From: a virus
Virus record (IMG/VR): IMGVR_UViG_3300044998_000634
Span: 1 to 28,943 of that record
Reading direction: 5' to 3' (one strand)
DNA: 28,943 bases
Shown: in pieces, positions 4,654-28,469 of the stretch
How the letters are laid out: each line of letters starts with the position of its first letter
Numbering within the stretch: the first letter of the stretch is position 1
Position numbers and translations under genes: made by a program
Notes under the pieces: generated by a model
What the model was told of the DNA's origin: nothing
Databases searched by the model: none
What the model saw: the letters and a program-made list of their open reading frames with translations, nothing else

Positions 4654-4680
4654 ATTAGTATGTATACTAAATGTTAATAA
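4654..4680 (-). promoter_or_regulatory. Candidate late initiation motif upstream of the portal gene
   Basis: Read on the minus strand, TTATTAAC is followed by TTAGTAT-AC-ATACTAA (7-bp arms, 2-bp spacer) and then the start codon. This is one copy of a motif (TTATTAA, 10-13 nt, ATACTAATATG) also found at several other unit starts. It does not match the host TAnnTTTG promoter. Whether it is a promoter, operator or translation signal is unknown. Confidence 0.45.
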
Positions 4681-4690
4681 AAGTGTGTGT

Positions 4691-4722
4691 AATGTTTATA
4701 TAATGTTTATATAATGTTATAT
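4691..4722. repeat. Three tandem 11-bp AT-rich repeats
   Basis: AATGTTTATAT occurs at 4691-4701 and 4702-4712, with a 10-bp shortened third copy at 4713-4722. The array covers the last bases of the fibre gene and the gap before the portal gene. It may be part of the portal promoter region or simply a slippage product. Confidence 0.7.
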
Positions 4723-6054
4723 AATCATCCAATCATTTAATGTAGCTACATATATTAGTTTTATACTAGTCTTATTACCAGTTAAAATGTAAGGACTCGC
4801 TACTAAATTTATTGTTTCGGTATTGTGTGCGTTTATATCTAAATTACCCCCGTCACTTTTTTTGATAATTATAACTCGTCCGTCCTGTGGGTCTTCGGGG
4901 AGAACTAAAACTGGTATATTAGTTGCATTTATAATTAAAAGATATTCGTCTTGGTCTAAACTTATAAAAGAAGCAGTAAAATTTGTTACATCTTTAGTTT
5001 TTACGTGTACAGGGGTAGCTAATTTTAATCCTTTTTCGTCTAAAATTAAACTATTATTAAAATTAGATGTGTTAAAATCTGAAACTTCTAAAACAATAGA
5101 AGCTGTATCAGCAAAATCTTCACATTTTTTTTGTATTCTAGCTAACACATTTGTACTAGAAATAACACAATCATCTGTAATTTCGTTTAAAAATTTCGAA
5201 ATTGAACGACTATAATTAGTAGTATCTAACAGTAAAGTTTCTGTAATTCCAGCTTGTGCGGGCGTAAATGAGTCTTCTATACCTACACGTTTGTAATAAT
5301 TAAAATTATTACTTGTATCTGCAACTGTTTGTATAATAGATGTTGCTCCTTCTGCTGTATCGGGTCCAACGTAATTTAAATTGTTAACTGTGTGTGAACC
5401 AAATATCATTTGGTAACCTGCGCTTGTACCGTTTCCACTTTGTGTGTAAAATACTTCTCCTGTGGGTTCCCACGCAATATTATTCCAAAATAAAGTATCC
5501 CCCTTAAATGTCCCAGGTTGAACAGGCGTGTTAACATTATTGTTATTATTATTTAACACGTTAACAGCAGTTATAGTATACCCACCCGTTTGGTCTGCGT
5601 TTGGCGATGCACTTATTTCCAAAACTTTTAAGTGTCCAGTAGGGATTGCAGGCGCTACAGGGTTTGGGGATGGTACACCAACAGTATAAACTACTGTGTT
5701 TGTCGGACTAAGCGATATAATATCAATCCGAGGGTCGTTTATATCACCCGGAGACAAAATTATATTTCCCGCATTTGCGATATTATAAACGACAGCGTTA
5801 ATTTGATAAGTGCCACTTGTGTATAGAATGCGATTCGCATTTGGACTAACATCTAAACTAAAATTGAGTCCAGATACGATACCATCTAAAAAATAAGGAA
5901 TGTTAACATCTACAATTGTATTATCATTTTTTGTCAGTCTTAATATACCATTAGACGGGATTGTTGCAGATACAACAGAGTCATCAATCAAATTAGCATG
6001 TTGATTGATGGCGGGGATGATTTCGCAAGGGGTAGTAATTTGGTCGGCTGCCAT
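4717..6054 (-). CDS. Probable tail fibre / receptor-binding structural protein (445 aa)
   Basis: This protein is rich in Thr, Asn, Ser, Ile and Val, low in Cys and almost entirely beta-strand in character, as in fibres and spikes. The N-terminal 120 residues, with repeated short strands and loops, would attach to the virion. A PQPGTFKGDTLFWNNIAWEPTGE segment around residue 180 resembles the 'GDTLFWNGTAW' linkers common in phage fibres. The C-terminus (about residues 385-445: GRVIIIKKSDGGNLDI through IKLIYVATLNDWMII) matches the terminal beta-sandwich typical of trimeric fibre tips. It probably forms the adhesin or a shaft component. It follows the tail-tube-like genes with an 11-nt gap. Confidence 0.65.
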   Translation of the reverse strand: MAADQITTPCEIIPAINQHANLIDDSVVSATIPSNGILRLTKNDNTIVDVNIPYFLDGIVSGLNFSLDVSPNANRILYTSGTYQINAVVYNIANAGNIILSPGDINDPRIDIISLSPTNTVVYTVGVPSPNPVAPAIPTGHLKVLEISASPNADQTGGYTITAVNVLNNNNNNVNTPVQPGTFKGDTLFWNNIAWEPTGEVFYTQSGNGTSAGYQMIFGSHTVNNLNYVGPDTAEGATSIIQTVADTSNNFNYYKRVGIEDSFTPAQAGITETLLLDTTNYSRSISKFLNEITDDCVISSTNVLARIQKKCEDFADTASIVLEVSDFNTSNFNNSLILDEKGLKLATPVHVKTKDVTNFTASFISLDQDEYLLIINATNIPVLVLPEDPQDGRVIIIKKSDGGNLDINAHNTETINLVASPYILTGNKTSIKLIYVATLNDWMII

Positions 6055-6065
6055 TTTTTATTTGG

Positions 6066-6275
6066 TTAATTTTGGTTTTGTAAAGAATCTAAGAATTGAG
6101 AATACTCGGAAGCAGAATAATATATTGTACCTCCAGCATTTTCAATTTCTTCAATTTGTTTTTGAGAGAATTGTATCTCTTCTAATTGTATATAGTCTTG
6201 TGTAACAATTTTAACAGTATAATGTTCTGCCAAAATTGAATTTGTGTTTGGAATATGTGCGTAGTTTGATGTCAT
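6066..6275 (-). CDS. Small hypothetical protein between tail genes (69 aa)
   Basis: Unknown. It is a Glu/Gln/Ser-rich 69-aa protein with no membrane segment. Residues 30-50 (IQLEEIQFSQKQIEEIENAG) should be helical. It is packed 3 nt after the stop of the tail-tube paralogue and 11 nt before the fibre gene, so it belongs to the same unit. It could be a fibre-assembly chaperone or a small virion component, on context alone. Confidence 0.6.
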   Translation of the reverse strand: MTSNYAHIPNTNSILAEHYTVKIVTQDYIQLEEIQFSQKQIEEIENAGGTIYYSASEYSQFLDSLQNQN

Positions 6276-6278
6276 TTT

Positions 6279-6902
6279 TTAAGGTAAAAGGTTACAAAGT
6301 TGTTCGGGTGTTAGAAAACATAGCTCTGTTGCAGTCAAATCACATAAACTAAAAATCAAATTAGGTGTTATGTATGTGTTAATATATTCTAAACTTACTT
6401 CTCTTACTAAATATCTTTGTGTTAATTTAGTTAACACTGTCATTATATTTCCTTCTTCATTATTTCCAAGATTTGCGTCGACTGTAGTAACTGTACCACC
6501 CCATTCCCCTATGAGGAACCAATTTAAATTACTATCTTGTATTAAATATATTACGTTTTTTATATTTAGTATACTCTCTACTAAATCTCGCGTTGTTTGC
6601 TGTTGAGAAGATAAACTAAAGTTTACTTCTATATTGTACAAATCCTCATTTTCTACTTTTTTTTGTGTAAAAAAACTATTATTATGTATATGTTGTACTT
6701 CTGTCCAAAAATTCTGTATGCCATTATGTCCAACTATTTTACCAAATTGATTTTGAGATGTCTCTTCTAACAAAAAATGTTCCCCAAAATACTCCCTGTC
6801 ACTTACAAATAGTCTATTTATTGTTCCAACTGCAACAATACAAGGCTGAGTAACACTATTTGGATTAGTAAATGTATTATTTATCTGTTTGTTAAATCTC
6901 AT
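6279..6902 (-). CDS. Tail-tube-like paralogue with Cys/Leu-rich C-terminal extension (207 aa)
   Basis: This protein appears paralogous to the one at 7350-7916. Both have an FWTEV/TWFKV strand, a long polar segment, and then an IYLIQDSNLNWFLIGEWGG versus VVLVQDSSGVWRLFGETLG core, followed by a Y-I-T tail. The present copy adds about 25 residues ending CDLTATELCFLTPEQLCNLLP, with repeated L-C-x-LT elements. It may be a minor tube, cap or neck protein that stacks on the major tube protein, or a decoration protein. It overlaps the next upstream gene by one base (6902), suggesting coupled translation. Confidence 0.6.
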   Translation of the reverse strand: MRFNKQINNTFTNPNSVTQPCIVAVGTINRLFVSDREYFGEHFLLEETSQNQFGKIVGHNGIQNFWTEVQHIHNNSFFTQKKVENEDLYNIEVNFSLSSQQQTTRDLVESILNIKNVIYLIQDSNLNWFLIGEWGGTVTTVDANLGNNEEGNIMTVLTKLTQRYLVREVSLEYINTYITPNLIFSLCDLTATELCFLTPEQLCNLLP

Positions 6903-7249
6903 TAAATATACCCTCCATTTGTGTTATTGTTAATAGAGTCGCCAACTTTTAACAACTCTCTAAATAATATATCGTTATTATAAACAAATCGTAATTCATA
7001 CTCGCCTTCATTTATAAATACTATTCCGTTACTCAAATCCTCATCATTCAAATTTTCTGTTATTTCTAGTAAAAATAATACCCATTTTTCGTATTCAGTT
7101 ACACTATTTAATGTAACAATTTTTAAGATTTCTGGGTTTTTTTGAGTTACTATGTGTAATGCTATATTACTATATATTAAGTTTTGGAAAGACAAGTTGT
7201 CCTTCCAAACGGGTAACTGATTTACAGTATTAGTATAAGTTTGTAACAT
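6902..7249 (-). CDS. Hypothetical tail-associated protein (115 aa)
   Basis: Unknown structural-type protein. It has a GEYELRFVYNNDILFRELLKVGD pattern near residues 80-103 that resembles short beta-rich proteins next to fibre genes in Bacteroidota phages. It is the first gene after the terminator-like hairpin at 7281-7310. Its ATG lies 8 nt after an ATACTAAT motif, so it probably begins its own transcription unit. It ends in a one-base overlap with the gene at 6279-6902. Fibre attachment or chaperone roles are guesses from position. Confidence 0.6.
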   Translation of the reverse strand: MLQTYTNTVNQLPVWKDNLSFQNLIYSNIALHIVTQKNPEILKIVTLNSVTEYEKWVLFLLEITENLNDEDLSNGIVFINEGEYELRFVYNNDILFRELLKVGDSINNNTNGGYI

Positions 7250-7275
7250 AAGTATATTAGTATGTATAGTATTAA
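7250..7275 (-). promoter_or_regulatory. Candidate late initiation motif upstream of the 7249 gene
   Basis: On the minus strand TTATTTAATACTATACATACTAATATACTT (given as its parts TTATTTAA, ATACATACTAAT and ATACTT) leads directly into ATG at 7249. It begins just downstream of a minus-strand terminator, as expected for a fresh promoter. It lacks the host TAnnTTTG box. Confidence 0.45.
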
Positions 7276-7277
7276 AT

Positions 7278-7310
7278 AAAAAAAGTGTGCTCAGTTACGA
7301 ACACACTTTT
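7278..7310 (-). terminator. Intrinsic terminator after the tail-tube-like gene
   Basis: Read on the minus strand, AAAAGTGTG and CACACTTTT (9-bp arms at 7302-7310 and 7281-7289) enclose a 12-nt loop and are followed by a run of seven T's. It lies 40 nt past the stop of the 7350-7916 gene. It would separate the highly expressed capsid/tube genes from the fibre, portal and lysis genes, with read-through or a new promoter feeding the latter. Confidence 0.8.
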
Positions 7311-7349
7311 AGAGTTATGAATACAAATAAAAGTTGAAAAATCTTAAAA

Positions 7350-7916
7350 TTAAGGAGCTACAGGCATAGTTGTAATATAAGTAGATTCTACCGCCCTAGC
7401 AAAACCTTGCTCACCTCTTGTGAGCGTGATAGTTGTACCTGCAACATCTGTTTGTGTAGTACCAGAATTTTTGTCAAATTCGCTTGCACGAAGACCCAAA
7501 GTCTCACCAAATAGTCTCCAAACACCAGAGGAATCTTGTACTAGTACAACAAGTCCCTTAGAGTTTTTAACTTCTGTAAGAAAAGATGCTACTTCCATCG
7601 CCGCATTTTCTAAATCTAAATCGTCTCCCAACTGGGCAACTTGGAAAGTAACGCTTTGATTTATAAATTTAGATATAGGCGAACCCAGAGTCTCCGAGGT
7701 TACTAAAGTATCGTCATAAACGACAACTTTAAACCAAGTATCGGAAGGGGTTGTAAGTGTAACGGAATTTATTACCGCAATGGGTGTAGGGGAAGGGGAA
7801 GCGTCCACGTAAGCGCTAACTTTCTCTCTATCAATAAGATACAGAATACTCTTGTTACCACCGGGGGTAGAACGAGCGCAGTTTTGGTCGAGACCACTTG
7901 TTAAAAGGCAACTCAT
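7350..7916 (-). CDS. Probable major tail tube protein (188 aa)
   Basis: The N-terminus (GLDQNCARSTPGGNKSILYLIDREKV) has the 'G-x-x-C...GG-x-x-x-YL' signature I associate with an abundant tail-tube-type protein in Bacteroidota phages. The centre carries SVTFQV followed by a helix, and the core VVLVQDSSGVWRLFGETLGLRASEF ends in a typical GTT..TDVAGTTITLTRGEQ segment (about residues 120-175). At 188 aa it fits tube proteins. It is directly downstream of the major capsid gene and has richer codon use than its neighbours, as expected for an abundant virion protein. A head-decoration protein is the main alternative. Confidence 0.6.
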   Translation of the reverse strand: MSCLLTSGLDQNCARSTPGGNKSILYLIDREKVSAYVDASPSPTPIAVINSVTLTTPSDTWFKVVVYDDTLVTSETLGSPISKFINQSVTFQVAQLGDDLDLENAAMEVASFLTEVKNSKGLVVLVQDSSGVWRLFGETLGLRASEFDKNSGTTQTDVAGTTITLTRGEQGFARAVESTYITTMPVAP

Positions 7917-7937
7917 ATATATGTTTTTTTTGTTCTT

Positions 7938-7980
7938 TTTTTAAGCTTATAAAAGAGGGGAACTTAATCCCCCCTTGTCC
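7938..7980 (-). promoter_or_regulatory. Possible attenuating hairpin between capsid and tube genes
   Basis: On the minus strand AGGGG and CCCCT flank about 10 nt and are followed by CTTTTAT. The stem is short and the T-tract is interrupted, so it would be at most a weak terminator. It could also be an mRNA-stabilising hairpin after the capsid gene. Confidence 0.35.
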
Positions 7981-7995
7981 TAAGCGAATGTTTTT

Positions 7996-8949
7996 TTAGA
8001 TACCGTACACTGCGATGTCAGCACCGTGGCGATAACCTACACCAAATCTTGTTTTGATTCTCATACGGACGTTGTCGTTAAAAGCGTCACTTATACTCAT
8101 ATCTGTGATATTTACAGTAGTTTCATCTGATTTTGCGCTGTAAACAACACCTAAATTGTCCGAATAAGTTGCGAACATGGTGTTATCTGGCAGTGCAGTT
8201 ATAGCTACAACTTCTATTCCCAAATAAGCAACTCTAGTTACACCGCTAGTCGGATCGAATTGGAAAGTACCAACACCGGAACCCGCTTGTGTTACTTTAA
8301 ACAGGTAGGCATCCATAACGTTTTGCGCTACAGCTATTTTCAGACCACTTTTTTTAGAAGACCCTTTTAGTTTCTTGCTAATTTGTAAGTAAAGTCTGTT
8401 CATCTCAGCGAGCACATTAGACTCTGTAATCGCTACTGGAGATGTAACTTTTTGTACAGATGCATCATTTTCCCACAATTTCAGATAACCATCACACAGA
8501 TCCAGCGAAGTGTTAGTCGTACCTTCACTATCGCCATTTATTATAATGTTATCAACTTTTTGTTTAGCTACCTCGATAAACAAATCTAATGCAGCGTTAA
8601 TAAAATCAGTCTGAGTTATTTTTTCACTATTGAAACTCTCATTTCCGTAAAGTGCTTCGAGAGCTGTATCCACTAAATCGTTGTGACAAAGTTGAGCAGT
8701 CAATTGTACAGCACACAAATTAGTTTCGTTTTGTTTTAGTGTAATGTTACCAACCTCGTCTGTTTGACACTCGTAAGCAGACATATCCATATTAGTTGAC
8801 AGGTCGTGCCATACGTAAGTGCTTCGGAATGAAGGGATTACACGAGCACCGAAGGTTTCAACCAAGTAGTTACCGGAAAAAATAGGTATAACAATCTCAT
8901 CCAGCGCAACCTTTCCGGCATAATCGATATTTGTTTTTAGTAAAGCCAT
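7996..8949 (-). CDS. Major capsid protein, HK97-fold type (317 aa)
   Basis: This is the main shell protein. The N-terminus has ALDEIVIPIFSGNYLVETFGARVIPSFRS. A long E-loop/spine helix region contains FINAALDLFIEVAKQKVDNIIINGD (about residues 120-145). The A-domain is LGIEVVAITALPDNTMFATYSDNLGVVYSA (about 245-275), and the protein ends in RMRIKTRFGVGYRHGADIAVYGI, a pattern seen in many HK97-like capsid proteins. It follows the protease-scaffold gene by 31 nt, the classic order for these genes. Codon use is less AT-extreme than in surrounding genes, which suits high expression. Confidence 0.85.
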   Translation of the reverse strand: MALLKTNIDYAGKVALDEIVIPIFSGNYLVETFGARVIPSFRSTYVWHDLSTNMDMSAYECQTDEVGNITLKQNETNLCAVQLTAQLCHNDLVDTALEALYGNESFNSEKITQTDFINAALDLFIEVAKQKVDNIIINGDSEGTTNTSLDLCDGYLKLWENDASVQKVTSPVAITESNVLAEMNRLYLQISKKLKGSSKKSGLKIAVAQNVMDAYLFKVTQAGSGVGTFQFDPTSGVTRVAYLGIEVVAITALPDNTMFATYSDNLGVVYSAKSDETTVNITDMSISDAFNDNVRMRIKTRFGVGYRHGADIAVYGI

Positions 8950-8980
8950 AATATTTTTTTGTTTTTTTTGTTTTTTGTGA

Positions 8981-10196: not shown

Positions 10197-12740
10197 TTAC
10201 AAAGTTGCGCGACTTTGAGCACGTAATACACTATCTTTTACTCTATCTATACTCTCAACACTCACGACAATTTCTGGAATTTGTGCTTGTTGATTAGTAA
10301 TGTTAGTAATGTTATTTGTTGTTCCGCCAACTAATCCACCATCACTATACCCTTTTAATCGCATATTTTCGAGTTGGGAAACAAACATATTTCCGATTGG
10401 ATTTTGTAAAATTGTTGCAGGTACAACATACTCACCTGCGTGTACAATACCAGCAGGCTCATATTTTCCACCTTTTTTAGTATAACCCCCTTCCGCAAAC
10501 TGAGGTAAGGGTGTTGCTAAAGCGGTTGCTAACTGAGCTGCACCGACTACACCATAACTCGCGGCTAAAATACCGGCACTTATACCTATGTCTGCTTTAG
10601 GTACTTGTGCTAGTGCAGTTATTATAGCAAGTGAAGTTGCTTGTATAATACTCGCAATATTTATTGCTTTTTCACGTTTTGCTGCTTTTATTTGTTCTTC
10701 TTTTTTCTTTTTTTCTAAATTTAATTTCTCTTGTTCTGCATTTTTTCTCTCATTTTCTAATTTTCTTTCAATTGCTCGTTGTGTCTCTAAGTTAGCTAAC
10801 GCTTCTGCTGTGTTTGTCGCATTACTATTTCTAAAAGCTTCTTCAGCTTCAGCTATCTTCTCAGCTTGTGTTTTTAGTTGTTCGTCGAGAAAAGAAATAC
10901 GTTCATCTACAACTTCTATCTCTTTATCGATAGTTGCTATACGATTTTCAGATATTTGATTCAGTAAATTGTTTATTTCACCAGTTATATTTTTTGATAT
11001 TTCAGCATATTGTTTTGTTTTAGCTATAGCTATATCAATTTTTTGTTGTTGTGCTTTTTCAAAAGCTTCAACATCTTCATCAGTCAAAAATTGTTGTACT
11101 TCATACAATCTTTTTATAATAGCTATACGTTCGTCAGCACTTAATTTTTCATTTCTACTTTTTTCTCGTAAGTTGTTGATAGTCTGTTGTTTAGCGTTTT
11201 CTTCTGCGACAAGTAATTCTTGTTGAATTCTTACAATTTGTTCTTTTTTTCTATTTTCTTCTTCAATTTCTTTACTGATTTTATCAACTGTAAATTTAAC
11301 AGCGTCTTCATTGTACTCTTTTTGTATAGTAGTTAATTTTGTTAACAATTCTTTTTGTATCTTTTCTCTTTCTATACTTTTTTCTTTTTCAAAATTAACA
11401 ATTCGCTGTTTGTCGAAAAATTCTGAGTCAATTGCAGCTTTTTGAGCTTCTGCTAGTAACTCAATTCTTTCTTTTTGCGTCTGTAAATCGAAAAGAATAA
11501 CAGAATTTAACTCATTTGTCGAATCAATTTTTAGTTTATCCGACTCAATTTTGTTTTTTGTTACTTCTGTTTGTATATCGATTTGTTTTTTAGCCAACTC
11601 TTTAAGTTTATCTCCCAAATCTTCTTCGCTTTTTGTAAGACTTAAAGTAGATTGTACTTGTTCAGCTCTTAAATTTTTTATTGTATCTTCCAAAATTATC
11701 AATTCTGCCATGGATGTTCTATTATCTGTCCGTGCTTTTGCTAAAGCGTTTTCTGTTTCTACTAATTTTTTAGTTATTTCTTCGTTTTTTTGTTTTTCGT
11801 CACTTACTTCGCTTTGTTTTAGTTTTATTTCTCGCAATTGTTTGTTTGTAGTACTTAAAACAATGTTAAGTTCCTTTTCAGCCTTTAACCATTCCAGATT
11901 TTTTTTCTGCAATTCTGCTCTAGCTTCTTTATTTTTTTTAAGAGCTTCTTCGTTATCTTCAGTTTTATCTGTAAAAATTGCAACAGCACCTGCAATCGCC
12001 CCAACCGCTGCAATTAACAATCCAACGGGTCCCAATGCTGCTTTAACTGCAATACCAAGCAACTTAGTTGCAAGAGTAGCCCCATTGGTTGCAGCAGTTT
12101 CCGCAAATCTCGCAGCGATTGTTTTTGCAACTGCTATTTGTTTAGCTATTTCAACAGCTTGTGTAACTGCTCCAACCGCTACTGTAACTTGTTGTAATCG
12201 CAATATCGCTTCCTGCGCATTTTTATTCTCGCCAGCGAAACTTTGTACTAAAGCTAATCCTTGCCCAAAAGTTGAAGCTATACCAACTCCAACTTCAACA
12301 AGCTTTGTTTTTTGTTCTTTAAGAGATAAACTTGCTGCTTCAATTTGAATTTTTACTTGTTCTATTTTTTTGTTAGCTTCTATATATTTTTCTGTCCCTA
12401 CTTTAGCGCCGTCCAGTTCACCTTGCAAAAATTTTAATTGTGCATTTAAATCATTTATCGATCCTGTATCGAAAGCACCCAACTCAGCACTTAATAAATT
12501 TGCAGCTTCTTTTGCACCTTTTAAATCTTCTTGCAATTTAAAAGCTTCTGCTTGCAGTTTTGTAAAAGCTTCGCTTCCAATCTCAACATTTTTTAATTCT
12601 TTTCTAATTTTTTGCAATTCTGCGACAGAGCCCGGGACTACTTTATTAGTTTCTTTAACATTTTTGTTAAGTGTATCAAAACTTTTAATACTCTCAGCTA
12701 AACCCTTAACTTCTAAGCTAATTACCTTTTTACTTTCCAT
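10197..12740 (-). CDS. Tail tape measure protein (847 aa)
   Basis: This long, mostly helical protein sets tail length. It begins with coiled coils (VAELQKIRKELKN, LNAQLKFLQGELDG) and has a hydrophobic stretch at about residues 225-258 (LLGIAVKAALGPVGLLIAAVG). An extended Lys/Glu coiled coil spans about 260-680, and a second hydrophobic block covers about 690-740. The C-terminal QFAEGGYTKKGGKYEPAGIVHAGEYVVP motif (about 745-772) is diagnostic of this group of tape measures. By the usual scaling of about 1.5 angstrom per residue the tail would be near 125 nm, so a siphovirus is likely. The antisense strand carries long open frames caused by the Lys/Glu-rich coding bias; they are not genes. Confidence 0.9.
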   Translation of the reverse strand: MESKKVISLEVKGLAESIKSFDTLNKNVKETNKVVPGSVAELQKIRKELKNVEIGSEAFTKLQAEAFKLQEDLKGAKEAANLLSAELGAFDTGSINDLNAQLKFLQGELDGAKVGTEKYIEANKKIEQVKIQIEAASLSLKEQKTKLVEVGVGIASTFGQGLALVQSFAGENKNAQEAILRLQQVTVAVGAVTQAVEIAKQIAVAKTIAARFAETAATNGATLATKLLGIAVKAALGPVGLLIAAVGAIAGAVAIFTDKTEDNEEALKKNKEARAELQKKNLEWLKAEKELNIVLSTTNKQLREIKLKQSEVSDEKQKNEEITKKLVETENALAKARTDNRTSMAELIILEDTIKNLRAEQVQSTLSLTKSEEDLGDKLKELAKKQIDIQTEVTKNKIESDKLKIDSTNELNSVILFDLQTQKERIELLAEAQKAAIDSEFFDKQRIVNFEKEKSIEREKIQKELLTKLTTIQKEYNEDAVKFTVDKISKEIEEENRKKEQIVRIQQELLVAEENAKQQTINNLREKSRNEKLSADERIAIIKRLYEVQQFLTDEDVEAFEKAQQQKIDIAIAKTKQYAEISKNITGEINNLLNQISENRIATIDKEIEVVDERISFLDEQLKTQAEKIAEAEEAFRNSNATNTAEALANLETQRAIERKLENERKNAEQEKLNLEKKKKEEQIKAAKREKAINIASIIQATSLAIITALAQVPKADIGISAGILAASYGVVGAAQLATALATPLPQFAEGGYTKKGGKYEPAGIVHAGEYVVPATILQNPIGNMFVSQLENMRLKGYSDGGLVGGTTNNITNITNQQAQIPEIVVSVESIDRVKDSVLRAQSRATL

Positions 12741-12753: not shown

Positions 12754-12882
12754 TTATTTGTTTTTGTTTGAGAATACGTATCTACATGTGTGCCAGTACT
12801 TTACACACATATATATTATTAGTTTTTTTATATACTTAAATGTATAGTATAGTATTTGTGTTACTCTTTTTAATTTTAACAT
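12754..12882 (-). CDS. Possible 42-aa basic peptide upstream of the tape measure
   Basis: A short frame on the minus strand starts at ATG 12882 and stops 13 nt before the tape measure ATG. It encodes a basic peptide rich in Lys, Tyr and Ile (MLKLKRVTQILYYTF at the start). Its start codon is preceded by TTATTAAC and ACATACTATT, the same motif that precedes the start codons at 4653, 23995 and 28470. That shared context, and its position between a divergent gene and the tape measure, are the only support. It may be a leader peptide rather than a functional protein. Confidence 0.4.
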   Translation of the reverse strand: MLKLKRVTQILYYTFKYIKKLIIYMCVKYWHTCRYVFSNKNK

Positions 12883-12907
12883 AATAGTATGTATGTACTG
12901 TTAATAA
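12883..12907 (-). promoter_or_regulatory. Candidate late initiation motif restarting the late arc before the tape measure
   Basis: On the minus strand TTATTAAC (12900-12907) followed by ACATACATACTATT runs into ATG 12882. The site lies between the divergent lipoprotein promoter and the tape measure gene, so it is well placed to restart minus-strand transcription. No TAnnTTTG element is present. Confidence 0.4.
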
Positions 12908-13226: not shown

Positions 13227-15992
13227 TTATATTTTTACCAAAACCACTCGAGTTAAAGGGTTAAAAGGGTCGTACCCACTTATTTCACTTATGTAAAATA
13301 AGTGTTTATCGATTTTTATAGGTACATTATACTGTATATTTGCGACATCTTGTTCGTTTAACAGAATATTAACCTCGACTTTAACCCCAGATATTATATT
13401 GTTAAAATAATTACTAAAATTTGGTAAAGGAAACTGTTTTTTAATGTCCCAGTTGGGTAGTATTTTTGAAGATAAAGCTATACCCCGAGTACCCCCACCA
13501 ATCCAAGTGTCCGAAGACGGGAGTATGGAAATAGGTTCCCATTTTTGATATATAAATTTGGGTACAAAATTGTAACTATTTGGATTATTTAGTCTATCTT
13601 TATTTTGTACAAAGTAACTTTCTTCCGTGCTATAAGCGTGACATTGTAGTCCGATTGGGGAGTCTCCGTTTGGATTTAATAAAACTGGTTGTCTAACCGC
13701 GATATTTAACCCAGTTGGAATATTATTTTGTGTTTGATATGTACGTACATCAAACAAATTTATAGTTTTAGTAATACTAGAAGTACTCAATGTACTGTCT
13801 AATGTTACTATTTCTTCTACGCTATACCTATCATTTTCATCCTTTTTGTTAACTAAACGTAAAGTTTTCACCGAAGAAAGTGGTGATATAGTAGATTCGT
13901 CGAGATTACACTTATCACTCCAATCCAATAAGTTTAGTTTATTGTTATAGTAGTCATCATATCTATTCAAATTTACTCGATTTTCATCTTCTGTAAAAAT
14001 TATATTGTAAGATTCTGCTATTTCTTTTACAAAATTAACACATTTTATTGCTGGGAGCGTTTCTGCAATATTAAATTTTGTTGAAAATTGAGGAATGATT
14101 TCCATTTCTGCAAAACTACATTCCATTTGATGTACAATTAAATCACTTATCCAGTAATTAAAAGGACTAGATGTGACGGTAGAATAATTGGATTGATACA
14201 CCCTCCATCCGTATAGAAATTCCACAACATCATTTTGTTTTAACTCTACTTCCCACTCCCATTCAAAATTATATCCTGTATTTGCAAATCCTGTCCGATT
14301 AAAATTTGCTGGCTCTTCTATAATTGTATAGTCAAACGGTCTCCCTAAATCTAAAACTCTGGCACCTGGAAACATGCTATCATAATTTAACCAAGCGATA
14401 ACTTCTTCCTTAAAATCTCCAAATCCATAATTGGTTTCGGGATTGTCTCTCACTATTGTATTATTATTTAAGTAATTGTAAACAGTCTCTATTGTTTGTC
14501 TATTTTTTACTAAAATTGGCTGGAAAATACAATCGTTAATAAAAGGTGTAACACCCGGTGTATAAGAAGGAGTAGCAGCTTGTCCTCTAAAACTACTAAG
14601 TCCTGTATCTGTAAAACTTTTTCTATTGTTATTTATTTTTAAGTTATTAAACTTAAATCTAAACTTATATTTACCATCTTGCGGAACATTATATGCTTTC
14701 CAAGCGCGATCGCCAAACATATTATTCCAGTTTGCAAATCTTGTTTCGTTTTGAAAATGATTATCAAACCCAGGGTTGAATAACTCTTCCCCGTCATACC
14801 CGTTTGCGACTGTAAGCAAATCTGAATTATTTGAAGAGTAGTGTATACTGTTATTATAACCACTTGTTCCCAAAAAAAGTGGTTTAATACACTGCATAAA
14901 AACTTCAGAATCTTGGTAATTCGGGTCTGGTAAACGTAATAAATTAACTTGTTGTGTTCCACGTGGAACATACATGTTGTACAGAAAATTGCTAGAAGTG
15001 TTTATAGTTACAAGCGTTGGGGGTCCGGGTGAAACTTGCGGATTGTAAGGCGCATTTGCTATACTTCTTGCAATTTCAACCGTATCCACATACTTGTTAT
15101 TTACAACATTATGTGTCCTAGCGAGTACTCTAGCTAACAACCCCCAATTGTATCCTTCTATTTTGTTGTTTTTTGAAGTATACGTCATCACAAAATTATC
15201 ACGTATAGAATCTATGAAGTCTCCTGCAACATCTTTTCCTGCATCTTCAAAAATAGCTTCCAGTAATTTAATTACATAAACAGTAGGCAAATACAAAAAT
15301 TGGTTTATCGGATACTGCTCGCTAAACCACAACTGATTACCACCATAGGTCACTGTCGCGAAATCTTTCCAGTTTTCCGGGGTGTTGCTAGCATTATATG
15401 CACTTATGTAATTATTATTAACATCTGGGACATAAAAACCCCCGTAGTTTACAAGTGGAAACGTGTTTGGGTATGTACCTTCGTAATTTTGTATCCAAAC
15501 ATCTTCTAAACTAACAAACTCACTTTTGTTTATATTTAATTTATTTGCTATAATTTGACTATAGTCTGTTCCAGATACACCTGTCCATTGTTTTTTAATA
15601 CCAACAAAATAATATTTTCTGAAAGACTCAATTTCTGTAAGTAATTTATCTACAAGCTTAATTGTCCAACTTAAATTAGAACCCACACAATCACACTCAT
15701 AACTGTCTTTTGTAATTTTGTTTACTATTAGTGTTCCCCTTAAAACTGTAACACCTCCAGACAGTATTTGAACGTCATAATTTCTGATATTTAAGAATCC
15801 TTTTTCAGTTTGTAAGTCTTCTACGTGTTCAAATATTTTTCTATTTTTTAATGTGCGCGGTAGTTTTAAGTCTAGTGTGTAATCTGCTGTTTTCGTATTT
15901 GTACTAAAATCGAATACGCGTTTGAATATCTTTACAGATAAATCTTTTGTATCAAAAACGTCTGCTTCTTCACTATTTATAAGTAGTCTCAT
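13227..15992 (-). CDS. Large tail-tip/baseplate protein, hub-like (921 aa)
   Basis: The N-terminus contains VKIFKRVFDFS...TKTADYTLDLKLPRTLKNRKIF (about residues 20-55). This is a recurring opening of the large tail-tip proteins of Bacteroidota phages, in which 'T-x-D-x-x-LPRTxxNxxIF' is conserved. Around residues 635-695 the segment LPAIKCVNFVKEIAESYNI...NLNRYDDYYNN.LNLLDWSDKCN resembles gp27/Tal-like hub domains. The rest is beta-rich and Asn/Tyr-rich. It probably forms the tail tip or hub that joins tube and fibres. It converges with the plus-strand lipoprotein gene with only 8 nt between stops. Confidence 0.6.
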   Translation of the reverse strand: MRLLINSEEADVFDTKDLSVKIFKRVFDFSTNTKTADYTLDLKLPRTLKNRKIFEHVEDLQTEKGFLNIRNYDVQILSGGVTVLRGTLIVNKITKDSYECDCVGSNLSWTIKLVDKLLTEIESFRKYYFVGIKKQWTGVSGTDYSQIIANKLNINKSEFVSLEDVWIQNYEGTYPNTFPLVNYGGFYVPDVNNNYISAYNASNTPENWKDFATVTYGGNQLWFSEQYPINQFLYLPTVYVIKLLEAIFEDAGKDVAGDFIDSIRDNFVMTYTSKNNKIEGYNWGLLARVLARTHNVVNNKYVDTVEIARSIANAPYNPQVSPGPPTLVTINTSSNFLYNMYVPRGTQQVNLLRLPDPNYQDSEVFMQCIKPLFLGTSGYNNSIHYSSNNSDLLTVANGYDGEELFNPGFDNHFQNETRFANWNNMFGDRAWKAYNVPQDGKYKFRFKFNNLKINNNRKSFTDTGLSSFRGQAATPSYTPGVTPFINDCIFQPILVKNRQTIETVYNYLNNNTIVRDNPETNYGFGDFKEEVIAWLNYDSMFPGARVLDLGRPFDYTIIEEPANFNRTGFANTGYNFEWEWEVELKQNDVVEFLYGWRVYQSNYSTVTSSPFNYWISDLIVHQMECSFAEMEIIPQFSTKFNIAETLPAIKCVNFVKEIAESYNIIFTEDENRVNLNRYDDYYNNKLNLLDWSDKCNLDESTISPLSSVKTLRLVNKKDENDRYSVEEIVTLDSTLSTSSITKTINLFDVRTYQTQNNIPTGLNIAVRQPVLLNPNGDSPIGLQCHAYSTEESYFVQNKDRLNNPNSYNFVPKFIYQKWEPISILPSSDTWIGGGTRGIALSSKILPNWDIKKQFPLPNFSNYFNNIISGVKVEVNILLNEQDVANIQYNVPIKIDKHLFYISEISGYDPFNPLTRVVLVKI

Positions 15993-16015
15993 ATTTGTAT
16001 GTATGTTTTTTATTA

Positions 16016-22699: not shown

Positions 22700-22700
22700 A

Positions 22701-22940
22701 TTAAAAAAAAGGATTGTTTTTTTGTAAGAGTACTTGCAGCCAAAACGCGATTATACTACATATAATAGTATCTATTGTTACATTGTATAAAATTGTTAGT
22801 GTTATAAATGTAGTCCAAAAACTTAAACAATACTCACAATTTAATAATTTTGTTGGTATTTCGTATTTACACAAAATCCATATTGAGTATAAGTACACAA
22901 CAAATGTACATATTAGTGTTATTTTTAGTTGTATTAACAT
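22701..22940 (-). CDS. Small integral membrane protein with CxxC motif (79 aa)
   Basis: Two to three hydrophobic helices are visible: residues about 7-24, about 40-57 and 58-72. Between the first two lies LNCEYCLSFW, a C-x-x-C flanked by aromatic residues, recalling small membrane proteins of the DUF1360-like kind. It overlaps the start of its neighbour at 22934 by 7 nt. Its site between a regulator-like gene and small cytosolic genes gives no firm function; effects on host envelope or holin-like action are possible. Confidence 0.6.
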   Translation of the reverse strand: MLIQLKITLICTFVVYLYSIWILCKYEIPTKLLNCEYCLSFWTTFITLTILYNVTIDTIICSIIAFWLQVLLQKNNPFF

Positions 22941-23317
22941 TTGTTAAATACTTGTTTTAGTGTTTTTTTACTTATATTATAGTGTTCACACACTTTATTG
23001 TTAACTTCTCTTAAAATTACGCGCAATCTGTTGTAAGGGATGCCCAGTTTTTTAGACAGTTCTCGCTGTGTATCATCTGTATGTAAATAAGTGTACCAAA
23101 TTATCATTTTTGTGTGTGTCGTCAATAACGATACTGTTATTAGTAAACTATGTAACTGTATCTGTTTGTTTAACTCTTCTTCTTTTTTATTTTGCTCTTC
23201 GTCTAAATCAAAAAAATAATTGTTTTGATAGAACATACTGTCTAAAGAGCTATAGTTTTTGTGTACTATATCTTCTACATGTTCGTTTTTTAATGTTTTT
23301 CCGAAAAAGTTTTTCAT
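22934..23317 (-). CDS. Sigma-region-4-like helix-turn-helix protein (127 aa)
   Basis: The C-terminal half (about residues 78-120) reads IIWYTYLHTDDTQRELSKKLGIPYNRLRVILREVNNKV, a helix-turn-helix of the sigma-70 region 4 kind: acidic helix, turn at LGIPYN, recognition helix RLRVILREVNNK. The N-terminal half is acidic with a QNKKEEELNKQ linker and no sigma region 2, so it is not a full sigma factor. It would suit a small late-gene activator or sigma-like subunit, or a DNA-binding small terminase. It stands near the beginning of the late arc, as expected of an activator. Its start overlaps the preceding stop as ATGA. Confidence 0.55.
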   Translation of the reverse strand: MKNFFGKTLKNEHVEDIVHKNYSSLDSMFYQNNYFFDLDEEQNKKEEELNKQIQLHSLLITVSLLTTHTKMIIWYTYLHTDDTQRELSKKLGIPYNRLRVILREVNNKVCEHYNISKKTLKQVFNKC

Positions 23318-23490: not shown

Positions 23491-23491
23491 A

Positions 23492-23995
23492 TTATTGTAG
23501 TTGTAGTTTTTTTGTGTTTTGTGTAGTTAGTTGTAATTCAAAAAAGTCTTTTCTTACTTTTTCGTATGTGTTTCTAACAGTGTTTACGTTTGTCAGAATT
23601 TTTGATATTTCGGGGAGTATCGGCATGTTGTATAAATTCCATTTCGCATAGTAATTGTCAGAAAAAAATACTATAAAAAACGGTATAGCTTTTAATTCGA
23701 ATGCTGCTTTCATCATTTCGTCATACTTTCGCTTTTCTAACAAAATAGTATTATATTGATTGTGTGTTATATTACGTACTTTTATTTCGTATATGTGTTT
23801 TATATACACTTGTTTGTTATCTATTGTGTAGTTAGTTATAACTCCGCCTTCTTTTATTTGAATTGGGTAGCTTACCATAACGTCCCATCCCATTTCAAAA
23901 TTCGGACCCTCTTCTAAAATTGCTAAAGGGGATTGTGTTTTTATAAGTTGTTCTAGTTTGTCGAATCCTATTTTTTCTTCTTTTTTGTATAACAT
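23492..23995 (-). CDS. PD-(D/E)XK-type nuclease-like protein (167 aa)
   Basis: The segment GWDVMVSYPIQIKEG (D38) followed by YIKHIYEIKVRNIT (E70-I-K72) is the D...ExK arrangement of restriction-type nucleases, with further basic residues ILLEKRKYDEMM (K88) in the next helix and a closing strand IPFFIVFFSD. The size fits small phage endonucleases such as Holliday-junction or packaging-linked nucleases. It is the first gene of the late arc, beside the iteron region. It could act in recombination, replication or packaging. The start motif CACACATACTACTATG precedes it. Confidence 0.65.
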   Translation of the reverse strand: MLYKKEEKIGFDKLEQLIKTQSPLAILEEGPNFEMGWDVMVSYPIQIKEGGVITNYTIDNKQVYIKHIYEIKVRNITHNQYNTILLEKRKYDEMMKAAFELKAIPFFIVFFSDNYYAKWNLYNMPILPEISKILTNVNTVRNTYEKVRKDFFELQLTTQNTKKLQLQ

Positions 23996-24011
23996 AGTAG
24001 TATGTGTGTGT
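23996..24011 (-). promoter_or_regulatory. Candidate late initiation motif at the head of the late arc
   Basis: On the minus strand ACACACATACTACT runs directly into ATG 23995, a variant of the motif ATACTAATATG at other unit starts. A clear TTATTAA element is not present here; ATTAAAC lies about 20 nt upstream. It is the start of the longest transcription unit of the genome. Confidence 0.4.
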
Positions 24012-24483: not shown

Positions 24484-24486
24484 TAT

Positions 24487-24852: not shown

Positions 24853-25095
24853 GTTACAGGTTACAGGTTACAGGTTATGTTTTAAAGTGTATATAAATTG
24901 ATGTATTTTATAGTTGTATATTTAAGTATTTTAGATAAATATTACTATTTTTATATAATATGTTTAAAGTAAGTTTTTGCCTGTAACCCTGTAACCTTAG
25001 ACGCAACTAACTGATAATCAACAATTTACGAGGTTACAGCTTTCCAAAGTAACGTGTAACTTGTAACCTTTGTAAACTTTGTAAACTTTGTAAAC
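24853..25095. repeat. GTTACAG/TGTAAC repeats and TTTGTAAAC array
   Basis: GTTACAG is repeated three times head to tail at 24853-24873. The reverse form TGTAACC occurs at about 24981-24996 and again near 25062, with further GTTACA/GTAAC copies at 25033-25060. TTTGTAAAC is repeated three times at 25069-25095. An AT-rich segment lies between the opposing arrays. Confidence 0.8.
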
Positions 25096-25266
25096 TTTTG
25101 TGCACGTATAGCCCCAACAAGGTCACATATGAATAAAAATGACAACATACACTTATTTCGCATTTACATGCGTTTTGAGACACTTTAGTATAAATTGATA
25201 TAACGACATAGCTAAGTATATAATCGTGCGTTATACGTAATCTCTGTGCGTTTTTTGACTATACGA

Positions 25267-25290
25267 TTAGTTCGGTCTGTTACGAACTAA
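25267..25290. repeat. Inverted repeat upstream of the replicase gene
   Basis: TTAGTTCG and CGAACTAA form perfect 8-bp arms around GTCTGTTA. The arm is identical to the iteron unit at 24293-24457, so the replicase could bind here and repress its own promoter, which starts 31 bp downstream. Confidence 0.75.
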
Positions 25291-25320
25291 AAAAACTTAA
25301 AAAAAAACTTAAAAAAAAAT

Positions 25321-25350
25321 TTGAATTTATAGACAAAAAGCTTATTTTTG
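25321..25350 (+). promoter_or_regulatory. Promoter of the primase-helicase gene
   Basis: TTG at 25321-25323, a 19-bp spacer and TATTTTTG at 25343-25350 fit the Bacteroidota promoter. The downstream GAGATATA is shared with the promoter at 28313-28343. The leader is about 40 nt. Confidence 0.7.
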
Positions 25351-25393
25351 AGATATAGAACAAGATATATAATTAAAATAACGCAGAACAATT

Positions 25394-27613
25394 ATGAAGA
25401 CCACACACACACACAACAGCTTAGTAAACGAACACACAGTTACTATTATCAAAAATTTGACAGATAGAGATAGTAACAACTACGTTTACAAAAGTGTAGA
25501 AGAACTCTACAAACTAATTATTTCTAACAAATACGAGAAGTTACAAACAGAAATAAAAAACAGTTTAGTAAACTTAACAGAAGAAGAAACAAAAAAACAG
25601 TTAAAGTTAAGTTTACCTTGTTTTATTAGTAACATTACGCAGGGATTGACACTTACAGACGTAACAGACTATACGAACGTAGTAACGCTCGATATCGATA
25701 AAAAAGATAATACACACTTAGTAAATTTTGATGAAGTAATTTTAGAGATATGGGAAAATTTAGGAACTGATGTAACTAACAAACGTACTAATATAACTAC
25801 TAAAGTACATAACTCTATACTTATGTACCAGACGATGTCTGGGGGTTATAGACTATTAGTAAACACATGTGTTAAAAACGAAAACGACTATAACACTAGT
25901 GTTAATTACTTAATACAACTAATATACAAAAATTTTAATGTTAAAATAGATGCAAGCTCAGCTCAACCTAACCACAAAATGGTAATTTTTTCTGACAAAC
26001 AGGCAAAATTTAGAGATGTTACAATAGCATTAGAAGTTCCAAAAAATTTTAAGAATGTAAAAAAAGAAACAAACAACACAAAAGATTTTACAAAAAATAG
26101 AAAAAGAGTAATAAGTAGTGTAGATATTGATATACAACAATTACAAGAGATTATAGAACAAATACATCAAAAATGTGACAAAAATACATTTGCTGAATAT
26201 TCGGAATGGATAAAATTGGGATATTGTTTAATAAGTTTAGGATTAACTGAAAAAGAGTTTTGTTTTTTAAGTAGTACAGCACATAATTATAACAAACAAG
26301 TATGTATTCAAAAATTTTATGAATTAGAACAAAGTTTTGATGAAAGTAAAGCCCCAAAAATACAGTATTTTTTATATTTAGCTGAAAAATTAGGTGTATC
26401 GTTGGAAAGAAAAATTTGGGAAAAACACAAATATAAAAGAGTAGATACAGAAAGAATAATTGAAGAAATATTTACAGAATATAAATATTCATATGATACG
26501 TTTACAGCTAAAGAATATGTAAATGAAAAAGAAATTGATGAGATACATGTAAATGTAGTATGTTCTCGTATAAAAAATAAATTTAGACTAGACATTACAA
26601 AAAGATATGTGGGTGAATGTATTACAAGTTTAGCTATAAAAAACACATTTTGTAGTGTAAATAACTTATTAAATAAATTAGACACAAATGTAACGTACAA
26701 TAGTATAAATCCAATTGATTTTAACGAATTTCAGAAATTGTGTAAAGAGTTGGGATTGAGTGAGTTAGAAGAAAAAATGTTATTTAGATATTTGCTTGGA
26801 TGTTTTATAAACTTTACGAACGAAAACGGTAATAAATATTATGACGAAATACTAATTTTACAAGGCGAACAAGGGGTAGGTAAAACTTGGTTTGTTAAAA
26901 ATGTATTAACAAAATATTTTTCTCTTTTTGTTAAAAAGGCAGAATATAGCACAAAAAAGGATGACAGAATGAAGCAAGCTACAAGTTTATTTTTATTCGA
27001 TGATGAACTATCTTCTTTAAGCAGAAACGATAGTAACATAATAAAACAATTAACAAGTGAAACTTCTTTTGATGAAAGACTACCTTATGCAGCCAAACTA
27101 AATTATTTTACAAGACGTTACAATTTTATAGGATGTACAAACAACAATTGTGTGTACAATGATTTAACTGGAGGTAGACGTTTTTTGGTTATTAACTTAA
27201 AAAATTACGAAAGAGGTATAGAAAAAAGAATAAACATGGAAAAAATATGGGGGTTTTTTTACAGATTACATATGGATGGGTATGATTATAATTTTTATGA
27301 TATAAATATTGAGTTAAAAGAAAAACAAGAAGAAGTAAGATATATAAGCACAGATGAACTTATACTGGGTGATATGATAGAAGTTTCTAACAAACCTACA
27401 CTATTATCAAATTTAATTACAGAGTACAATCAATTCTACCCATACAACAAACTAACCACAACCGCATGGGGGTTGATTATGAAAAAAAATAACATAAGGC
27501 AAGAAATAAAGAAGATAAACAAAAAAACTTGTAGACTGTATTACTGTAAATTAAGACATATGAACATCAAAAATTTGGAAAGTAAAGAATTAGTTACTAC
27601 ATTTGTAGATTAA
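25394..27613 (+). CDS. Replicative primase-helicase, VirE_N/PriCT_2/VapE type (739 aa)
   Basis: Three domains in order. Residues about 50-215 are a VirE_N (BT4734-like) primase-polymerase-type domain with VVTLDIDKKD (D100, D102) and a MSGGYRLLVN core (148-157). Residues about 235-330 (QQLQEIIEQIHQKCDKNTFAEYSEWIKLGYCLISLG) resemble PriCT_2. Residues about 455-680 are a VapE-family helicase with Walker A GEQGVGKT (491-498), Walker B LFLFDDE (532-538) and GGRRFLVINL (593-602) with a candidate arginine finger. It should both prime and unwind DNA and bind the adjacent origin. The start at 25394 has CA-rich first codons (MKTTHTHNS). No other DNA polymerase is coded, so host polymerase is needed. 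Confidence 0.88.
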   Translation: MKTTHTHNSLVNEHTVTIIKNLTDRDSNNYVYKSVEELYKLIISNKYEKLQTEIKNSLVNLTEEETKKQLKLSLPCFISNITQGLTLTDVTDYTNVVTLDIDKKDNTHLVNFDEVILEIWENLGTDVTNKRTNITTKVHNSILMYQTMSGGYRLLVNTCVKNENDYNTSVNYLIQLIYKNFNVKIDASSAQPNHKMVIFSDKQAKFRDVTIALEVPKNFKNVKKETNNTKDFTKNRKRVISSVDIDIQQLQEIIEQIHQKCDKNTFAEYSEWIKLGYCLISLGLTEKEFCFLSSTAHNYNKQVCIQKFYELEQSFDESKAPKIQYFLYLAEKLGVSLERKIWEKHKYKRVDTERIIEEIFTEYKYSYDTFTAKEYVNEKEIDEIHVNVVCSRIKNKFRLDITKRYVGECITSLAIKNTFCSVNNLLNKLDTNVTYNSINPIDFNEFQKLCKELGLSELEEKMLFRYLLGCFINFTNENGNKYYDEILILQGEQGVGKTWFVKNVLTKYFSLFVKKAEYSTKKDDRMKQATSLFLFDDELSSLSRNDSNIIKQLTSETSFDERLPYAAKLNYFTRRYNFIGCTNNNCVYNDLTGGRRFLVINLKNYERGIEKRINMEKIWGFFYRLHMDGYDYNFYDINIELKEKQEEVRYISTDELILGDMIEVSNKPTLLSNLITEYNQFYPYNKLTTTAWGLIMKKNNIRQEIKKINKKTCRLYYCKLRHMNIKNLESKELVTTFVD

Positions 27614-27645
27614 GATATATATAGTTGTTGTGTTCATTACTGTGT

Positions 27646-27680
27646 GTAGGGGGGTTGTGGTGACCTCCCTACTTTTTTTT
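27646..27680 (+). terminator. Intrinsic terminator after the primase-helicase gene
   Basis: GTAGGGGGGT (27646-27655) and ACCTCCCTAC (27663-27672) pair over 10 positions with one G-U, enclose a 7-nt loop and are followed by eight T's (27673-27680). It is 32 nt past the stop codon. Confidence 0.9.
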
Positions 27681-27702
27681 ATAAAAAAAAAATTGTAAAA
27701 AC

Positions 27703-27733
27703 TTGTTAAAACGACTTTTTTATATTATATTTG
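27703..27733 (+). promoter_or_regulatory. Early promoter C
   Basis: TTG at 27703-27705, a 20-bp spacer and TATATTTG at 27726-27733. It shares AAAAACTTG and ACTTTT around the TTG with the promoter at 28313-28343. The leader leads to the ATG at 27763 through GAGACACA. Confidence 0.85.
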
Positions 27734-27762
27734 TGATATATACATTAAACCGAGACACAGCT

Positions 27763-28242
27763 ATGATACACATTTACCCAAAAATAACAGACCCAAAAAT
27801 TACATTTGAGCAAGAAATGAATTTAACAATAGATATGTTAAATATAATTAGTCCTATAATAAAAATGATTTATGAAGATACTGAAACTGTAATAACACAC
27901 GATATAATACTACAACTAGAACGTATAAAAAATGACAAAACAGACGACTGGGCTGTACTTATAAATATAAAAAGAGATGAATACAAACATTTAGATGACG
28001 AAGAGTTTATTTATTTTAGAGATAATTACAAATTACAGGCACCAGAATGGATTTACAATTTAGTAAATTATATAAAATACGAAGAAGAAGATAAATACGA
28101 TGAAAATTTAGATTTTGATTTATATGTGAGATTTGACAAAAAATTATTATACGATTGGGTTAAGAGTAATTACAACACATATTACTCTTATATGAAAAAT
28201 AAAGAAAAATACTATACACAAAAACTAATAGACACACTATAA
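27763..28242 (+). CDS. Hypothetical acidic early protein (159 aa)
   Basis: Start set at ATG 27763, 30 nt after the promoter -7 box; an in-frame TTG at 27703 is the promoter itself. The protein is acidic and Tyr-rich with no membrane segment: MIHIYPKITDPKITFEQE at the start, a central block KTDDWAVLINIKRDEYKHLDDEEF and a C-terminal Tyr/Lys-rich stretch (NYNTYYSYMKNKEKYY). I recognise no family. High acidity is common in phage proteins that mimic DNA or inhibit host enzymes, which is only a hint. Confidence 0.7.
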   Translation: MIHIYPKITDPKITFEQEMNLTIDMLNIISPIIKMIYEDTETVITHDIILQLERIKNDKTDDWAVLINIKRDEYKHLDDEEFIYFRDNYKLQAPEWIYNLVNYIKYEEEDKYDENLDFDLYVRFDKKLLYDWVKSNYNTYYSYMKNKEKYYTQKLIDTL

Positions 28243-28288
28243 TATGACACAGATGATAGAATAATCTCTAAATTATTTTAATGTTAAA

Positions 28289-28349
28289 ATATCTCAAATA
28301 TAATATAAAAACTTGTAAAAACAACTTTTACATGTTATATTTGAGATAT
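28289..28349. repeat. 15-bp inverted repeat around early promoter D
   Basis: ATATCTCAAATATAA (28289-28303) and TTATATTTGAGATAT (28335-28349) are perfect inverted copies 31 nt apart. The right arm contains the -7 box TATATTTG of the rightward promoter; the left arm therefore contains the same box facing left. Confidence 0.9.
28313..28343 (+). promoter_or_regulatory. Early promoter D
   Basis: TTG at 28313-28315, a 20-bp spacer and TATATTTG at 28336-28343. Transcription should begin near 28350 and meet an intrinsic terminator about 80 nt later. Confidence 0.85.
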
Positions 28350-28438
28350 ATAAAGTAAGAGACACACGTCTTCTGTTCTGTTTGTTCTGTTCTGTTCTGT
28401 TCTGTGACCCCACTAGTAGCCTACTAGTGGGTTTTTTT
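28350..28438 (+). ncRNA. Putative 85-90 nt small RNA or attenuator leader with TTCTG repeats
   Basis: Promoter D would give a transcript running through GAGACACACG, then TTCTG twice (28371-28380), TTTG, TTCTG four times (28385-28404) and a strong terminator at 28409-28438. No start codon with a useful frame lies in it. It may be a free small RNA, or the regulated leader of the gene at 28470. The exact 5' end is inferred from the promoter position. Confidence 0.5.
28409..28438 (+). terminator. Intrinsic terminator
   Basis: CCCACTAGTA (28409-28418) and TACTAGTGGG (28422-28431), 10-bp perfect arms around GCC, followed by seven T's (28432-28438). Confidence 0.92.
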
Positions 28439-28445
28439 ATGAGAG

Positions 28446-28469
28446 TTATTAAACTAGATATATACTAAT
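28446..28469 (+). promoter_or_regulatory. Candidate initiation motif before the junction gene
   Basis: TTATTAAACTAGATATATAC (20 nt, from 28446) followed by TAAT leads directly to ATG 28470. The motif starts 7 nt after the terminator T-tract, so it could restart transcription with almost no leader. It is the only plus-strand copy of the motif otherwise found in the late arc. Confidence 0.4.

Follow-up and report, generated by a model that had tools for sequence, protein, structure and literature searches.

This genome raises the question of how its late genes are transcribed, and whether a motif repeated at their start codons acts as a promoter. The window analysed here is the entire 28,943-nt IMG/VR record IMGVR_UViG_3300044998_000634. 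It carries a 30-nt terminal repeat and is thus probably a complete, circularly assembled genome, with a base composition of about 70% A+T. A minus-strand arc (2022-23995) holds the genes for portal, protease, a virion structural (capsid-type) protein, tape measure and TerL, and a plus-strand arc holds a primase-helicase gene and small genes; Rfam and tRNA scans of the window were empty. A first-pass annotation had described TTATTAA followed by ATACTA at or close to the start codons of units beginning at 4653, 7249, 12882 and 28470, with weaker versions at 15992 and 23995, and had proposed a phage-specific promoter yielding leaderless or nearly leaderless mRNAs.

The 14-nt element at the unit starts

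Alignment of the six named starts revealed that their common part is the final 14 nt before the ATG, with a consensus of approximately (G/A)(T/C)ATACATACTAAT. In five units (4653, 12882, 15992, 23995 and 28470) its last base directly adjoins the ATG, and the sixth copy, at unit 7249, ends 6 nt short of it. When each site was held out in turn and scored against those of the 57,800 positions not used for training, the six ranked 1, 1, 1, 1, 2 and 7; a caution is that the sites were originally chosen by eye. A matrix built on four sites ranked the two that it had not seen, 15992 and 23995, 5th and 7th among all positions, each at offset zero. The placement of the element is non-random and far from chance. 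The copies and the genes that they adjoin are as follows.

4654..4667, minus strand: late element GTATACATACTAAT, abutting the ATG of the portal gene; held-out rank 1 of 57,800
7256..7269, minus strand: late element CTATACATACTAAT, 6 nt before the ATG at 7249, with a terminator directly upstream; held-out rank 1
12883..12896, minus strand: late element ACATACATACTATT, abutting the ATG at 12882; held-out rank 1
15993..16006, minus strand: late element ACATACATACAAAT, abutting the ATG at 15992; held-out rank 1
23996..24009, minus strand: late element ACACACATACTACT, abutting the ATG at 23995; held-out rank 2
28456..28469, plus strand: late element AGATATATACTAAT, abutting the ATG at 28470; held-out rank 7
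3538-4653, minus strand: portal gene, its ATG abutted by the late element
10197-12740, minus strand: tape measure gene, with the ORF from 12882 ahead of it
28470 through the record ends to about 435, plus strand: gene whose ORF was read across the junction

The ORF at 12882 has only 42 codons, and for this reason may encode a leader peptide that precedes the tape measure.

The TTATTAA half of the original motif fared differently. The pattern TTATTAA-N9..12-ATACTA occurs three times in the window, compared with 0.16 expected from dinucleotide shuffles, the pattern having been searched with spacers of N6..16.

4656-4680, minus strand: TTATTAA-ATACTA pattern at the named ATG 4653
12885-12907, minus strand: TTATTAA-ATACTA pattern at the named ATG 12882
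28446-28467, plus strand: TTATTAA-ATACTA pattern at the named ATG 28470

The distance between the two words varies (12, 10 and 9 nt, and 8 nt from TTATTTAA at 7249), the TTATTAA box is missing at 15992 and 23995, and a motif-agnostic simulation found some 7-mer common to three of the six segments in 8.5% of runs (p 0.085), which is not significant. On these three grounds we dropped TTATTAA from the signal, and its proposed role as a second promoter element was not upheld. The first-pass annotation was right that all six sites share an element at or near the ATG, but the shared core differs from the TTATTAA version that it put forward; likewise, the two "weaker" sites do have the 14-nt element abutting their ATGs, but not the TTATTAA box. 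The sites at 4653 and 7249 also have the word CACACTTTT in common, in one register; we rejected it as a possible -35 box, as it belongs to the terminator at 7249 and is absent from the other sites.

The elements could be chance similarities in an AT-rich genome, a view to which the base composition and the non-significance of the TTATTAA half on its own lend some weight. The held-out ranks of 1 to 7 in 57,800, the zero offset at five starts and the excess of the full pattern make this very improbable, and chance similarity is largely excluded by the leave-one-out test.

Gaps, terminators and host-type promoters

A gap of 20 nt or more precedes 6/6 genes bearing the element, compared with 9/24 other genes (Fisher p 0.017, gaps entered by hand). 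The intrinsic terminators, both strong, that had been reported directly before 7249 and 28470 were both found, and their position directly upstream means that a new transcription start is needed at each of these units.

7281..7310, minus strand: intrinsic terminator before the 7249 unit, a 13-pair stem and then a T-run
28409..28438, plus strand: intrinsic terminator before 28470, a 10-pair stem (28409-28431), the rest a T-run

On the plus strand, early genes are headed by promoters of the host type, with the spacing TTG-N17..21-TAnnTTTG, whose ends lie at 563, 900, 25350, 27733 and 28343. Three of them are located as follows.

533..563, plus strand: host-type promoter TTG-N-TAACTTTG, for the early gene 607-837
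870..900, plus strand: host-type promoter TTG-N-TATATTTG, for the early gene starting at 943
28313..28343, plus strand: host-type promoter preceding both the 28409 terminator and the 28456 late element

A search of the sense (minus) strand of the late arc, 2022-23995, for the same spaced pattern found none, in agreement with the first-pass annotation, which could find no TAnnTTTG promoter in this arc. The five antisense matches within the arc are compatible with chance (13 matches overall, 5.4 expected). None of the six element sites carries the boxes of a Bacteroidetes primary-sigma promoter, and the promoter ending at 28343 is separated from 28470 by the terminator. Five late units are predicted on the minus strand from this arrangement, starting at 23995, 15992, 12882, 7249 and 4653.

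Alternatively, the element may be a Kozak-like, AT-rich translation-initiation signal of strongly expressed first genes, the late mRNA being made by read-through from a distant promoter that escaped detection. The five copies that abut the ATG have A at -3 and -6, bases that favour translation in Flavobacterium johnsoniae (PMC6847099), as this explanation would have it. The copy at 7249 is displaced by 6 nt, however, which speaks against a pure ribosome signal; C and T positions are conserved besides the two A residues, the best copies stand only at unit starts with gaps, and the two copies directly after a terminator need a new start. We consider a translation signal unlikely, and related phages provide further evidence on this point.

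Relatives, their ATG-locked motif and sigma-like factors

Megablast against phage records revealed no near relative of the window, and no close one came to light when viral contigs were scanned with its TerL, primase-helicase and protease one protein at a time. The nearest named relatives by portal are the Nonlabens (Persicivirga) phages P12024S and P12024L, at 23%, and the protease is 32% identical to that of P12024S over 173 aa. With an alignment of these two proteases as query, at least 597 related viral contigs were found. Seven bacterial loci were found as well, among them ones in Galbibacter, Pricia, Psychroflexus and Flagellimonas. These bacterial loci indicate that the phage family is probably flavobacterial; the window phage belongs to this large siphophage family, and we infer a flavobacterial host for it as well.

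The first-pass annotation had named motif enrichment in related genomes as a check. An exact scan for the full motif (TTATTAA plus ATACTA) returned 62 stretches, and the exact motif was not shared with relatives; the sole similarity to window proteins among the 62 was a weak helicase match in one contig (L005), where the motif lay away from a gene start. An exact scan for TATACATACTAATATG returned 25 contigs, with one cluster of six contigs, five of which had distant portal similarity (24%); two of these five also had the protease (29%). This cluster was rejected as support: in G023, the one member that was read throughout, the match runs into the 3' part of the gene before it and no second copy was seen. 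Exact scans of viral contigs thus did not find the window element repeated in another genome. A different motif, of the extracytoplasmic function (ECF) type, is nevertheless enriched in relatives at the same place.

Several late genes of P12024S have a GTTAATA-type word immediately ahead of their start, and 7 of the 110 CGTTA words in this phage lie at -12 or -11 of GenBank starts, compared with 0.36 expected. Among 348 non-redundant unit-start upstreams of the family, GTTA occurs at -11 in 22 (against 2.1 per position), CGTTA at -12 in 13 (against 0.46) and AACAAA at -31 in 11 (against 1.3). The two boxes are coupled, with ACAAA at -32..-28 in 13 of 25 GTTA sites (2.3 expected) and no excess in windows further off. 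The resulting family layout is AAC-N16/17-CGT, fixed to the ATG, from which 9 nt separate the end of the CGT box. ECF sigma factors are characterised by AAC and CGT boxes (PMC8103513), and Flavobacterium psychrophilum has a promoter class with a CGT box, SM6, that has been read as ECF-type (PMC9723704). The relatives thus have the AAC (-35) and CGT (-10) boxes of an ECF-type promoter, 16-17 nt apart; in the six aligned sites of the window, CGT is absent from -12 and AAC from -31.

These upstreams bear on the translation signal in two ways. They are A-rich at about -13 to -11 and at -3, which speaks for such a signal, but their coupled second box at -31 lies beyond the reach of a ribosome.

The pooled family matrix was noisy (3 of its top 8 matches in P12024S lay at annotated starts), and gave nothing sensible when run on the window. 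An all-pairs comparison of upstream similarity within each genome, an insensitive test, placed few genomes clearly above controls. By eye, the Pricia locus has the variant TTTTTCCAAA...TCTTATGGGTGT before the ATG and the Flagellimonas locus CTTCCAAAT...TTTTGTTATTC, both in the same place, so that more than one variant seems to be in use at this position among the relatives. The window element may be a diverged form of the family motif, to which it is linked by position only.

Sigma-like proteins are frequent in the family. The phage sigma factor profile phrog_1740 matches 14 of 19 long family records (E 1e-4 to 3e-13), the matching genes usually lying on TerL's strand and upstream of TerL where both were seen. 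The relatives' proteins (160-200 aa) are region-2-like at the N-terminus and region-4-like at the C-terminus, as in ECF sigma factors. In P12024S_33, the match to Pfam Sigma70_r2 exceeds the cut-off, and region 4 is below the Pfam cut-off but correctly placed. A family sigma profile also identified a likely sigma factor in contig G023, while its matches in the Flagellimonas, Pricia and Bacteroidetes loci were partial sigma factors. In the window, one gene stands out by its profile matches.

22934..23317, minus strand: candidate late factor, 127 aa, with a helix-turn-helix similar to sigma region 4

This protein is the best of 210 window ORFs against the iterated family sigma profile, with a weak match in the region 4 part (E 3e-4); its hhalign probability is 41.5%, the next ORF reaching 2.6%, and it matches phrog_351 at E 6e-4. 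Comparison with the family sigma profile found no region 2. Its AlphaFold model was poor, and Foldseek with this model returned nothing at E <=0.001; no sigma structure is among the Foldseek VIA matches listed for it, which, given the poor model, excludes nothing. The match being weak, we regard this protein as a lead to the sigma factor of the window and not as a result.

Conceivably, the element is instead an operator or activator site beside other promoters, for example weak host-type ones that need a phage activator. A helix-turn-helix protein in a window where no complete sigma factor was found would suit such a scheme, as would the fact that host core promoter boxes can be degenerate. 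Activator sites are not usually held at a fixed position relative to the start codon, though, the sense strand near the elements has no host-type box, and relatives have sigma genes together with ECF-type boxes at the same place. An activator site seems to us a still weaker candidate than a translation signal.

Proposed mechanism and known systems

We favour, with a probability of roughly 60%, the reading that the 14-nt element is the core of a phage-specific late promoter that is read by a dedicated factor, yields leaderless or nearly leaderless mRNAs, and has diverged from the ECF-type promoter of the family. The promoter at the start codon proposed in the first-pass annotation thus survives, without its TTATTAA box: it fits the placement of the element, a late arc whose sense strand has no host-type promoter, and the ECF-type motif and sigma factors of relatives. 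On the other side stand the absence of the family AAC and CGT boxes from the window element, a candidate factor that resembles region 4 only, the A residues at -3 and -6, the choice of the sites by eye, and exact scans in which no other genome had the element repeated.

Under this promoter reading, host promoters would serve the early genes. Host core RNA polymerase would then be redirected to the late elements by a phage factor, for which the sigma-like helix-turn-helix protein at 22934-23317 is the most likely candidate, and the 14-nt element would be the downstream core of the late promoter. The units at 23995, 15992, 12882, 7249 and 4653 would be served in this way, as would 28470 on the opposite strand. 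Transcription would start at the ATG or only a few bases from it. With a box-to-start spacing of 6-9 nt, as in phages 7-11 and phiEco32 (PMC8948821), CGTTA at -12 would put the 5' ends of family transcripts at about the A of the ATG; TATACA at -13 in the window would do the same, and at 7249 would leave a leader of about 6 nt. Leaderless mRNA is likely, judged from position alone, that is, from the fixed distance between motif and ATG. Translation of such an mRNA would depend on the ATG itself, and the A residues at -3 and -6, present in the DNA, would lie outside the transcript if it is truly leaderless.

More tentatively, it is possible that leaderless virion mRNAs from ATG-fused promoters, read by phage ECF-like sigma factors, are a trait of the whole family, and that in the window the sigma factor has lost region 2 and the promoter has become TATACATACTAAT, the two having co-diverged. 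Judging from the family sequences, the wider finding of an ECF-type promoter locked to the ATG in many related phages is more interesting than the window element alone, and we found no earlier report of ATG-locked late promoters in this phage group in the open-licence literature. If true, unit starts, operons and gene starts of late expression could be read from sequence in widespread, mostly uncultured phages; the family would offer a natural series of co-changed sigma-promoter pairs; and these phages would rely on leaderless translation in hosts that do without Shine-Dalgarno signals and are themselves rarely leaderless.

Phage sigma factors with late promoters are already known from 7-11 (gp47) and phiEco32 (gp36), in which a sigma-family protein directs the host core polymerase to a short repeated late motif (PMC8948821, PMC4331800), and we propose a likeness to these systems. 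Their early genes use host promoters, as in the window, and their transcription starts lie 6-9 bp from the motif (PMC8948821). The two phages are related, yet their motifs differ at similar places (tAATGTAtA versus GTAAtg-16-aCTA; PMC8948821, PMC4331800). Promoters and factors have been shown by experiment in these phages, with no mention of ATG locking, whereas in the window we infer function and the element abuts the ATG. A repeated motif ahead of late units is present in the window, and its candidate sigma gene is a weak match; phi32_gp36 has no region 4, whereas the window candidate resembles region 4 only. TATACAT looks similar to the phiEco32 motif when that motif is reverse-complemented, but we discounted this likeness because its orientation is wrong.

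With the ECF sigma promoters (PMC8103513) and the SM6 class (PMC9723704), the relatives share AAC-N16/17-CGT, which they have before late starts, and ECF-like sigma factors, with the difference that the relatives' boxes are ATG-locked; the window element departs further, having neither AAC nor CGT in register. The Bacteroidetes primary-sigma promoter (TTG ... TAnnTTTG) stands ahead of early genes and is absent from the sense strand of the late arc. Phage transcripts are often leaderless according to the AR9 paper (PMC5312081), and in F. psychrophilum leaderless transcripts make up only 5.5% of mRNAs (PMC9723704). Leaderless mRNAs elsewhere start at or next to the start codon, as predicted here, where they would be made by a small siphophage using the core polymerase of its host.

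Candidate attenuators near late genes

Window positions 28313-28438 hold a host-type promoter (the Bacteroidetes primary-sigma layout), followed by approximately 90 nt with TTCTG repeats that terminate in an intrinsic terminator, with the late element (the predicted phage-specific late promoter) and the ATG at 28470 coming next. Set between two promoter classes, this region is a candidate small RNA or attenuator, and an Rfam scan returned no match for it. A terminator-like hairpin at 7956-7974 lies immediately 3' of the capsid-type gene and ahead of gene 7350-7916, which is without a clear late element of its own; this hairpin is possibly an attenuator following a highly expressed gene.

Repeated sequences in the window

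Two near-identical early blocks each precede a different gene, and the intergenic region at the arc boundary, judging from its repeats, looks like a replication origin.

505-950: early promoter-plus-leader block, two copies, TTGCAAAATC...TTTG TTATATATAAAGTATAAAAAAACACCACAACACCACAACAC-ATGGAAA
24100-25090: direct repeats GTTCGTTTAGTTCGGTACAGACCGAACCAACTGTGTAGTTTGCGTGAGTTTTTAA, at least two copies; also GTTACAGGTTACAGG / TTTGTAAAC repeats

Relatives of the phage

Related structural genes are carried by five bacterial genome assemblies (L149, L150, L151, L152 and L153; Galbibacter, Pricia, Psychroflexus, a Bacteroidetes MAG and Flagellimonas), suggesting that some members of the phage family may be prophages. 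In the isolated relative Nonlabens phage P12024S, late-type motifs lie in gaps of approximately 30-50 nt common with divergent small genes on the opposite strand. For two of these small genes the gap also contains a host-type box, TATATTTG, and thus two promoter classes in one gap.

Gaps with a late-type motif and a divergent small gene in P12024S (L066)
2980/3031
5365/5412
23927/23961
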